Part shown: positions 30,534 to 33,731 of the stretch, piece by piece
Layout of the letters: every line of letters starts with the position of its first letter
How positions within the stretch are numbered: position 1 is the stretch's first letter
Assembly: GCF_021353265.1 (NCBI RefSeq)
Contig: NZ_JAJTWU010000001.1
Location: forward strand, 558,001-622,000
Reading direction: 5' to 3'
Origin: Pelomonas cellulosilytica
GTDB taxonomy: Bacteria; Pseudomonadota; Gammaproteobacteria; Burkholderiales; Burkholderiaceae_C
DNA: 64,000 nt
Program-made: the position numbers and the translations under genes
Notes under the pieces: generated by a model
Database searches by the model: none
Seen by the model: only the letters and a program-made list of their open reading frames with translations
What the model was told of the DNA's origin: nothing

Positions 30534-31787
30534 ATGGCCATCGTTGACGTCCAAGTTCCCCAGTTTTCCGAATCCGTTTCCGAGGGCACGCTGCTGACCT
30601 GGAAAAAGAAGCCCGGCGAAGCCGTCACCGTCGACGAGACGCTCGTCGAGATCGAGACCGACAAGGTCGTGCTCGAAGTGCCCGCACCGGCCTCCGGCGT
30701 GCTGGCCGAGATCGGCGTGGCTGACGGCAGCACCGTCACCAGCCAGCAGCTGCTCGCCAAGATCGACACCGAGGGCAAGGCCGGTGCCGCCGCCCCTGCG
30801 CCTGCTGCTGCCGCACCGGCGCCCGCCGCCACGCCGGCTGCCGCGCCTGCTGCCATCGGCGGCAACAAGGGTGACGTGGCCATGCCCGCCGCCGCCAAGA
30901 TCCTGGCCGAGAAGGGCCTGGCCGCGACGGACGTCGCTGGCTCAGGCAAGGACGGCCGCGTGACCAAGGGCGACGCGCTGGCCGCGTCCGCCAAGCCGGC
31001 CGCCGCGCCGCTGGTCGTGCCCGCCACACCCGCCGTGGCCAAGCCGCTGCCGGCCGTGTCCGCGCCCGTCGCGCAGAACCTCGGCGACCGCCCCGAACAG
31101 CGCGTGCCGATGACCCGCCTGCGCGCCCGCATCGCCGAGCGCCTGCTGCAGTCTCAGGCCACCAACGCCATCCTGACCACCTTCAACGAAGTCAACATGG
31201 CCCCGGTCATGGAGATGCGCAAGAAGTTCCAGGAGAAGTTCGAGAAGGAACACGGCGTGAAGCTGGGCTTCATGAGCTTCTTCGTGAAGGCCGCCGTCGC
31301 CGCGCTGAAGAAGTACCCGGTTCTGAACGCCTCGGTCGACGGCAACGACATCGTCTATCACGGCTACTTCGACATCGGCATCGCCGTCGGCTCGCCGCGC
31401 GGCCTCGTCGTGCCGGTGCTGCGCAACGTCGACCAGCTCAGCTTCGCCGATATCGAGAAGAAGATCGCCGAGTTCGGCCAGAAGGCCAAGGAAGGCAAGC
31501 TGTCGCTGGACGATCTGTCGGGTGGCACCTTCTCTATCTCCAACGGCGGTGTCTTCGGCTCCATGCTGTCCACGCCTATCATCAACCCGCCGCAATCGGC
31601 CATCCTGGGCGTGCACGCCACGAAGGACCGCGCCGTGGTCGAGAACGGCCAGATCGTCGTGCGCCCGATCAACTACCTCGCGATGTCGTATGACCACCGC
31701 ATCATCGACGGCCGCGAAGCCGTGTTGGGCCTGGTGACGATGAAGGAAGCGCTCGAGGACCCGGCCCGCCTGCTGTTCGACATCTGA
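30534..31787 (+). CDS. sucB: Dihydrolipoyllysine-residue succinyltransferase (E2 of 2-oxoglutarate dehydrogenase)
   Basis: Core acyltransferase of the complex. The 417-residue protein has one lipoyl domain with the modified Lys44 in ETDKVVLEV, an Ala/Pro-rich linker (about 80-110), the peripheral-subunit binding domain ([10 protein letters not shown]...[10 protein letters not shown]), a second linker, and the catalytic domain with His388 and Asp392 in [11 protein letters not shown]. The single lipoyl domain is usual for SucB. Normally lpdA would follow at once; here 522 bases holding a broken zeta-toxin-like gene intervene. Confidence 0.97.
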
Positions 31788-31791
31788 CGTG

Positions 31792-32181
31792 ATGTCGTCG
31801 GCGGCCCCTCGCGTCATCGTCATTGCCGGCCCGAACGGCGCCGGCAAGACGACATTCGTGAGGGTGCTCCTGCCGCAGGAAGCGCAATGTCCCGTCTAAG
31901 TCAACGCCGATTTGATTCCCGCTGGACTGGCGCCGTTCGCGCCACAGACGGCGGCGTCGGCGGCCGGGCGGCTGATGCTGTCGGAGATCGAGCGGCACGT
32001 GCAGCGGCGAGAGAGCTTTGCTTTCGAAACCACCTTCAGCGGTCGAGCCTTTGCCCGCTCCATCGAGCGCTGGAACCGGGCCGGCTACCAGATCGAGTTG
32101 TTCTTCGTGTGCTTGATTGGAGCGACTCATGAAAAGCGCCAAGCCCCTAGTGCCAATGCTGTCCACCGCCAAGTGCGCTGA
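31792..32181 (+). pseudogene. Zeta-toxin-like ATPase relic between sucB and lpdA
   Basis: From ATG 31792 the frame reads an intact P-loop (IVIAGPNGAGKTTF, residues 9-22) and then meets TAA at 31897-31899. The same frame continues with features of the zeta-toxin family: VNADLI, LAPFAP, AAGRLML and ESFAFETTFSGR, then a hydrophobic IELFFVCLIG strand. After about residue 115 homology stops and the C-terminal half is missing; the frame closes at 32181. Intact relatives usually have about 190-200 residues. A nonsense codon and a 3' deletion make it non-functional. Zeta proteins phosphorylate UDP-activated sugars or act as nucleotide kinases. Confidence 0.8.
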
Positions 32182-32269
32182 CTTTCGAAATGCCGCCGCG
32201 GCGTTTGAGCGCGCCCGGCAGCGTGCGCACGACCTTGCCAAGCAAATCGACACCTATCTGGTCGTGTAA
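32129..32269 (+). CDS. Small hypothetical protein, possibly a remnant of the zeta partner gene
   Basis: A 46-residue frame starts inside the damaged 3' end of the zeta-like relic. Its second half, ARQRAHDLAKQIDTYLVV, resembles the short helical proteins often encoded beside chromosomal zeta-like genes, as I recall them. It ends 40 bases before lpdA. Codon use is less biased than in the neighbours, with several A/T third positions, and there is no clear ribosome site. It may be a truncated fragment fused into this position rather than an expressed gene. Confidence 0.35.
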   Translation: MKSAKPLVPMLSTAKCADFRNAAAAFERARQRAHDLAKQIDTYLVV

Positions 32270-32309
32270 CAAAGCGGCCAGCTCGTCAAACTGAAAGTGA
32301 ACTGATTCC

Positions 32310-33731
<1,422 letters not shown>

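Follow-up and report, generated by a model that had tools for sequence, protein, structure and literature searches.

What occupies the 522 nt that separate sucB and lpdA in the genome of Pelomonas cellulosilytica? The gap lies in a contig stretch of 64,000 nt that was analysed as a whole (the window), and an original prediction, made from the letters alone, had placed in it a decayed gene for a zeta toxin-like ATPase together with a short frame that might be the tail of a partner gene. From sequence and gene order we take sucB to encode dihydrolipoyl succinyltransferase, the E2 component of the 2-oxoglutarate dehydrogenase complex, and lpdA presumably encodes dihydrolipoyl dehydrogenase (E3), of which two distant paralogues with 39% and 27% identity are present in the same genome. 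The end of sucB (31787) and the start of lpdA (32310) agree with the size of the gap that had been given. The features of the locus are collected in Table 1. Genomes are designated with G-numbers, G000 being the window genome, and loci with L-numbers. The analyses described below make it very probable that the spacer is a recently inactivated copy of a two-gene module, composed of a zeta-type kinase and a partner, with a putative toxin-antitoxin role.

Table 1. Features of the sucB-lpdA region of G000 (positions refer to the window)
Feature	Position	Strand	Basis or remark
sucB	30534..31787	+	ORF of 417 aa; the module adjoins its stop codon
Kinase relic, 5′ part	31792..32106	+	PF06414 match; 77% identity to the G008 protein; alignments
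Premature in-frame TAA of the kinase relic	31897..31899	+	Frame reading
Deletion junction, about 184 nt	32106..32107	+	Alignment with G008
3′ end of the kinase gene (last codons and stop codon), shifted to another frame	32107..32132	+	Alignment with G008
Partner-gene relic, ATG 32129	32129..32305	+	Partner profile match; alignments
lpdA leader (20 nt upstream of the start codon)	32290..32309	+	−1.8 kcal/mol with the anti-Shine-Dalgarno sequence
lpdA	32310..33731	+	ORF of 473 aa

Identity of the Kinase Relic

The frame 31789-32181 was translated with an X at the stop codon and compared with Pfam. It matched PF06414 (Zeta_toxin) with 33.5 bits (E 3.6e-8), above the gathering cut-off of 22.3 bits. 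Searched separately, the two pieces of the relic yielded 18.8 and 17.0 bits, both below the cut-off. By itself a PF06414 score is unspecific and would not settle the identity of the relic. Of 14 control genomes, 13 gave scores that exceed the threshold, and in a search of the whole G000 genome an unrelated P-loop frame at C1:185782-185922 scored 31.3 bits and the relic 29.8 bits. That frame was considered as a second kinase copy and was rejected: its match, although above the cut-off, covers profile positions 13-57 only. Genome searches for a second copy of the kinase gene or the partner gene in G000 found none.

The identity of the relic was settled by a congener, G008, because an intact orthologue fills the same sucB-lpdA gap there. 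This homologue has 173 codons and is 77% identical to the relic over 109 residues (E 1.1e-52). The comparison with related genomes that had been suggested along with the original prediction thus delivered the intact copy, and a P-loop arisen by chance was ruled out by the same orthologue. The 5′ part of the relic has retained the Walker A motif and the conserved Asn-Ala-Asp and Phe-Glu-Thr motifs; translation could alternatively begin with the GTG at 31789. A PDB sequence search with the single relic returned mostly P-loop matches (best E 7e-6), with zeta toxin absent among the best 60 rows, and PADLOC and NCBIfam yielded P-loop-type matches only.

Three Lesions and a Probably Late Breakage

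Three lesions were detected in G000. The first is the in-frame TAA at 31897, which follows 35 codons after the ATG at 31792, just as had been read originally. The second is a deletion at 32106/32107. Alignment with G008 and G303 revealed that about 184 nt are missing in comparison to G008, which is not a multiple of three and thus shifts the frame. The gene had been described as having lost its C-terminal half, which was too simple: the deletion is internal, it removed the region that carries the conserved arginines and the Gly-Gly-His motif of the relatives, and the final codons survive behind the junction. The third lesion is a TAA at 32267 in the partner gene. The 46-codon frame that had been taken for the tail of a partner does belong to a partner gene, yet it represents the start and most of the gene; it ends at its own stop codon (32267-32269), while the homology reaches the old stop codon at 32303-32305. 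A profile built from 18 partners matched G000:C1:590129-590302 with one TAA and an E-value of 4.4e-20; one of the 18 sequences in the model was taken from part of this region.

To what extent the frame had been under constraint can be read from the substitutions. The dN/dS value of the kinase relic against G008 was 0.11 over 103 codons, and that of sucB was 0.118. When the changes were polarised by G303, 7 first-position, 5 second-position, and 19 third-position changes fell on the G000 branch (19 of 31 at the third position), and 3, 4, and 15, respectively, on the G008 branch. Judged from these comparisons, the kinase frame was under purifying selection, and the decay is therefore probably young. 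Because the third-position excess and the dN/dS value match constraint, selection appears to have preserved the gene during most of the period after G000 and G008 separated, and the breakage to have come late.

Purifying selection that is still visible in the frame would also be expected if the stop codons were assembly errors and the module were intact in the living strain. This explanation is extremely improbable, since the locus carries three lesions at separate places, including the deletion of about 184 nt, and since the contig has a length of 917 kb and the genome is rated 100% complete. A single sequencing error at the first TAA would not explain the separate frameshifting deletion. Domestication or decay had both been envisaged for the inserted gene; the three lesions fit decay, and no sign pointing to domestication was found. 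Kinase matches with one internal stop codon were also present in other genomes of the family, at G420:C68, G262:C33, G216:C19, G353:C60, and G376:C4, and thus the decay of such kinases is not unique to the window.

The sucB-lpdA Gap in the Genus and the Family

Matches to sucB were found in 17 of 20 genus genomes (E ≤ 1e-100; the match in G011 is partial), and the gap was measured in 17 genomes. It comprises only 17-21 nt in nine of them, and 154-157 nt with a common non-coding element in five; the gap of G006 has 335 nt and contains a different frame. The remaining two contain the module, broken in G000 and intact in G008, so that it is absent from 15 of the 17. In the family, the gap of 70 genomes among the matches listed is at most 21 nt in 24 cases, 57-163 nt in 27 cases, and longer than 300 nt in 19 cases, of which the window is one. 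The premise that sucB and lpdA are normally adjacent applies to nine of the 17 measured genus genomes, with 17-21 nt, but in the wider family long gaps are present in 19 of the 70 listed genomes. The central claim, a decayed zeta-type gene lodged between the two genes, stood: it is borne out by the Pfam match, the G008 orthologue, the near-empty sites, and the three lesions.

Among the contents of the long gaps are small multidrug-resistance transporters and SHOCT-PspC proteins, identified with Pfam for one and two representatives, respectively, and by eye for the rest. The loci L078-L094 from other genera have multidrug-resistance transporters, SHOCT-PspC or lipoprotein-like genes in the gap. 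The gap thus serves as a recurrent landing site for small genes.

The 154-157-nt element fills the gap at L034, L035, L040, L042, and L047 (G018, G013, G010, G015, and G011, respectively), and a similar start was seen by eye in G078 and G187. Between G018 and G010 it is 97% identical over 119 nt, and sucB of the same pair is 91.5% identical. The element was considered as a dispersed repeat, which found no support, as it occurs at one place each in G018 and G010 and at none in G000. Rfam searches with L034, L040, and L001 revealed no family above the gathering score. In G006 the gap contains a 109-codon frame on the minus strand of L043 (1161-1490) without a Pfam match; in this genome the lpdA start is preceded by a stop codon at a distance of one base, and its ribosome-binding site is weak. 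At L032 and L033 (G014 and G005) the DNA identity to the window is 92% for sucB, 85% for lpdA, and 91-92% for sucA, a pattern that points to recombination with a breakpoint close to the gap.

Outside of the genus, three genomes (G303, G128, and G197) carry the module behind sucB. In the kinase tree, from which the relic was left out, G008 groups with G303 and G128 (support 99/98), and the placement of G197 is uncertain. The dS value of the kinase between G000 and G008 was 1.04, in comparison to 0.40 for sucB and 0.33 for lpdA. The two copies may thus not descend from one insertion that was carried along with the flanking genes; in view of this dS difference, transfer or codon-usage effects could be involved. 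On the sucB and lpdA trees, three changes are needed to explain the distribution of the module, which fits an old insertion with losses as well as later transfer.

Partner Gene and Module Anatomy

In the relatives, the module consists of a kinase of about 173 aa and, behind it, a co-oriented small gene of roughly 50-75 aa. Counted with an automatic rule, which in L104 chose a frame other than the partner, the downstream frame overlaps the end of the kinase by 4 nt in 34 of 66 loci. A match to the partner profile was found just downstream of the kinase or fused to it in 45 of the 66 loci, 18 of which had supplied the model and 27 had not, some of them being near copies (L049 of L048). Elsewhere in the 66 loci, only one other match below E 0.05 was detected (0.02, on the opposite strand of L099). 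Fourteen of the 21 loci without a partner match belong to a separate kinase clade of the tree, the glnS type, and L120 and L125 resemble this clade by eye; L121, L122, L127, and L128 are distant kinases, and L070 ends at a contig edge. Searches of Pfam and NCBIfam with the 18 partners yielded only stray matches of single members with E-values of 0.005 or weaker; the partner family is absent from both libraries.

At five loci (L067, L099, L132, L137, and L139) the kinase and the partner form one chain with the partner at the C terminus, and L124 is a further fused frame in which the middle of the kinase is missing. The fusion of the neighbours into one chain supports a joint function. The arrangement is that of a type II toxin-antitoxin system insofar as two overlapping or adjacent co-oriented genes are kept together.

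Fold and Possible Activity of the Kinase

AlphaFold models, each computed with an alignment of eight sequences, were obtained for the fusion protein of L137 (mean pLDDT 76.6) and for L130 (87.0). The top rows of a Foldseek search with the L137 model were AvrRxo1-ORF1, epsilon/zeta, and PezT. In a VIA comparison the L130 model matched zeta (1gvn) with a Z-score of 15.8 and an rmsd of 2.1 over 165 residues. The zeta fold is thus predicted for these two relatives, L137 and L130, on the basis of models of them and not of the relic. By sequence and predicted fold, the kinase is placed with the zeta-type kinases. A bacterial polynucleotide kinase reached a Z-score of 16.9 with the L130 model, and owing to this tie the fold alone does not set the substrate.

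Asp39, Glu78, and Thr80 do not vary among 27 relatives and were related to zeta residues solely through the order of the motifs; no counterpart of the UDP-contacting Arg of zeta was identified in the kinase family. Asp67 of zeta and Asp66 of PezT are the proposed catalytic base (PMC3062530). Asp39 of the family probably corresponds to these residues, as judged from motif order rather than a residue alignment. The annotation "zeta toxin family protein" is attached to many relatives on plasmids, and L130 of the Gallionellales lies among toxin-antitoxin or restriction genes, as far as the neighbours could be read by eye.

We infer a toxin-antitoxin function for the kinase-partner pair. By phosphorylating a small metabolite or a nucleotide substrate, the kinase would arrest growth, and binding of the partner would silence it. 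At intact copies in the sucB-lpdA gap, the sucAB-lpdA transcript would yield both proteins. In G000 both genes are broken; the module is taken to be inactive, and the DNA left behind would be a decaying spacer before lpdA. Against a toxin-antitoxin role stand the gene order, which is the reverse of that of epsilon-zeta, and a partner that belongs to no known antitoxin family. Reports of toxicity or neutralisation for this kinase-partner family were not found in the literature searched.

Alternatively, the pair could be a small kinase with an accessory subunit, e.g., a polynucleotide-kinase-like repair or defence enzyme, that rides on host operons. In VIA, bacterial polynucleotide kinases were the best matches to the L130 model (Z 16.9); the family profile matched six PDB sequences at E ≤ 0.01, of which only Pnkp1 (E 1.8e-5) aligned beyond the P-loop region; and several modules are located inside restriction-modification operons. 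Nevertheless, this explanation is unlikely, since Zeta_toxin ranks first in Pfam for the relic, zeta-type structures rank first in Foldseek for the predicted fusion model, and relatives on plasmids are annotated as zeta toxin family, with some others lying among putative toxin-antitoxin genes.

Spread of the Module and Its Host Genes

A kinase match with E ≤ 1e-10 was present in 120 of 399 family genomes, the weaker of these matches representing distant kinases. A search of phage records returned one match with 29.8% identity, and a scan of 84,980 named genomes revealed at least six loci. For the 52 loci that have an intact kinase and enough upstream sequence, the position of the preceding gene was determined. 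In 39 of them a coding frame on the same strand ends between −60 and +20 nt from the kinase start, compared with a rough baseline of 18 of 49 predicted genes of the window. Host genes were named by Pfam with one representative per cluster. Most frequent are glnS (10 loci), sucB (five loci, including the window), and N6/N4 DNA methylases (five loci), while hemH, ruvA, ychF, thiC, manC, hsdM, and hsdS were found in one or two loci each. The host class largely tracks the kinase clade of the tree.

On the downstream side, the partner stop codon overlaps the next frame (≥ 90 codons) as ATGA in 13 loci, namely L051, L053, L054, L055, L056, L059, L062, L064, L068, L101, L102, L104, and L119, where the partner frames of L104 and L119 are automatic picks. 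Pfam named nine of the next frames, including ruvB after ruvA, a type I specificity subunit after hsdM, a ResIII subunit after the methylase (L051), a ResIII protein (L062), a GDP-mannose-dehydratase-type protein after manC, a YhcG nuclease after hsdS, and a thioesterase. The next frame of L056 is a repeated tail of the host aminotransferase, and that of L059 has no Pfam name. In G303 and G128 the partner stop codon overlaps the lpdA start likewise. Operon genes often overlap as ATGA, and therefore the overlap alone does not prove coupling.

At three loci a host tail is repeated across the module with 74-92% identity: the glnS tail in L012 (1308-1470 and 2455-2677) and L013 (1324-1483 and 2334-2493), and the aminotransferase tail in L056 (891-1190 and 2054-2353). 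These repeats on both sides of the kinase module hint at how modules enter behind a gene. A duplicated host tail was also considered for sucB and rejected, as no direct repeat of at least 20 nt was found in the window at 31000-32700 or in L041 at 500-2200.

It is tempting to speculate, with considerable reservation, that the relic and these loci represent an undescribed class of dispersing kinase-partner modules that are placed seamlessly between co-translated genes, so that the downstream host gene depends on translation of the partner. If so, the kinase start would overlap the stop codon of a housekeeping or restriction gene or come shortly after it, the partner stop would often overlap the next start codon, and lpdA, ruvB, hsdS, and type III res would be dependent genes. 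Such a dependence on the partner would tie the module to the host operon without a plasmid.

Possible Effects on lpdA Translation

It had also been proposed that the leftover spacer might still affect lpdA expression. The pairing of the lpdA leader with the anti-Shine-Dalgarno sequence was calculated to be −5.1 to −6.6 kcal/mol in all 14 genus genomes without a coding insert, −1.8 kcal/mol in both G000 and G008, −2.1 kcal/mol in G006, and +2.4 kcal/mol in G303 and G128. The weak leaders of the module carriers fit translation of lpdA by coupling to the preceding gene, which would be disturbed in G000. It is conceivable, if rather doubtful, that lpdA lost its own ribosome-binding site upon arrival of the module and was coupled to the partner gene, and that the TAA at 32267 now partly uncouples it. 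The difference between the 14 insert-free genomes and G000/G008 speaks for this, as does the lack of pairing in G303 and G128, where the partner stop overlaps the lpdA start. However, weak leaders are tolerated without coupling outside of the genus. Among the 21 genomes examined there, with start codons picked automatically, eight show leader pairing weaker than −2.6 kcal/mol, and in only three of these eight (G288, G433, and G248) does a stop codon end at the start or at most 7 nt before it; a further one, G141, has a 163-nt gap without an evident gene. Effects on lpdA translation are thus possible but weakly supported.

Discussion

A toxin-type module seems to have lived in a central metabolic operon and then died, and intact, broken, and empty states of the gap are found within one genus. 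The results point to a partner family that is missing from Pfam and NCBIfam and to a recurring placement of the module just behind the stop codons of core genes. They would allow tests of how such modules enter operons without polar effects, and of the dependence of host genes.

Literature searches did not reveal this kinase-partner pair or its placement, which may still have been published, and a search of PMC2701414 for passages on zeta-type modules found none with the terms used. With epsilon/zeta and PezAT the kinase shares the PF06414 match, the predicted fold in the relatives, the Walker A motif, and probably the Asp of Asn-Ala-Asp. In contrast, the chains of zeta and PezT have about 240-272 residues in the solved structures and that of the present kinase about 173 aa; moreover, an upstream antitoxin of the epsilon or PezA family is absent, and the partner, encoded downstream of the kinase, could not be assigned to any known family with the libraries searched. 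By its architecture, the module is therefore not an epsilon/zeta or PezAT system.

The closest named relative is SGL_RS01145 of the Synechocystis plasmid pSYSG, which is annotated as zeta toxin family and is 62% identical to the G008 kinase. Its end is likewise overlapped by a small hypothetical gene (SGL_RS01140, 59 aa), and its start lies inside the end of the preceding gene; in contrast to the present module, the pair is plasmid-borne and is not part of a metabolic operon. A potential defence island has been described on pSYSG, where the toxin-antitoxin-related genes sll8001-ssl8005 missed the criteria applied (PMC4963859). From its position, the SGL_RS01145/SGL_RS01140 pair would be among these genes.

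AvrRxo1:Arc1 is also composed of a zeta-type kinase and a partner protein, and it headed the Foldseek rows for L137. As in the present module, the partner gene lies downstream of the kinase gene. Unlike it, AvrRxo1 is a type III secreted effector. AvrRxo1:Arc1 is reported to act as a toxin-antitoxin pair in E. coli (PMC4938570). EzeT of Escherichia coli combines a zeta-type kinase and the antitoxin function in one chain (PMC4826407), and this one-chain form is comparable to the five natural fusions. In EzeT the antitoxin domain is N-terminal, whereas the present fusions carry the partner domain at the C terminus. AvrRxo1:Arc1 and EzeT are the nearest tested systems found.
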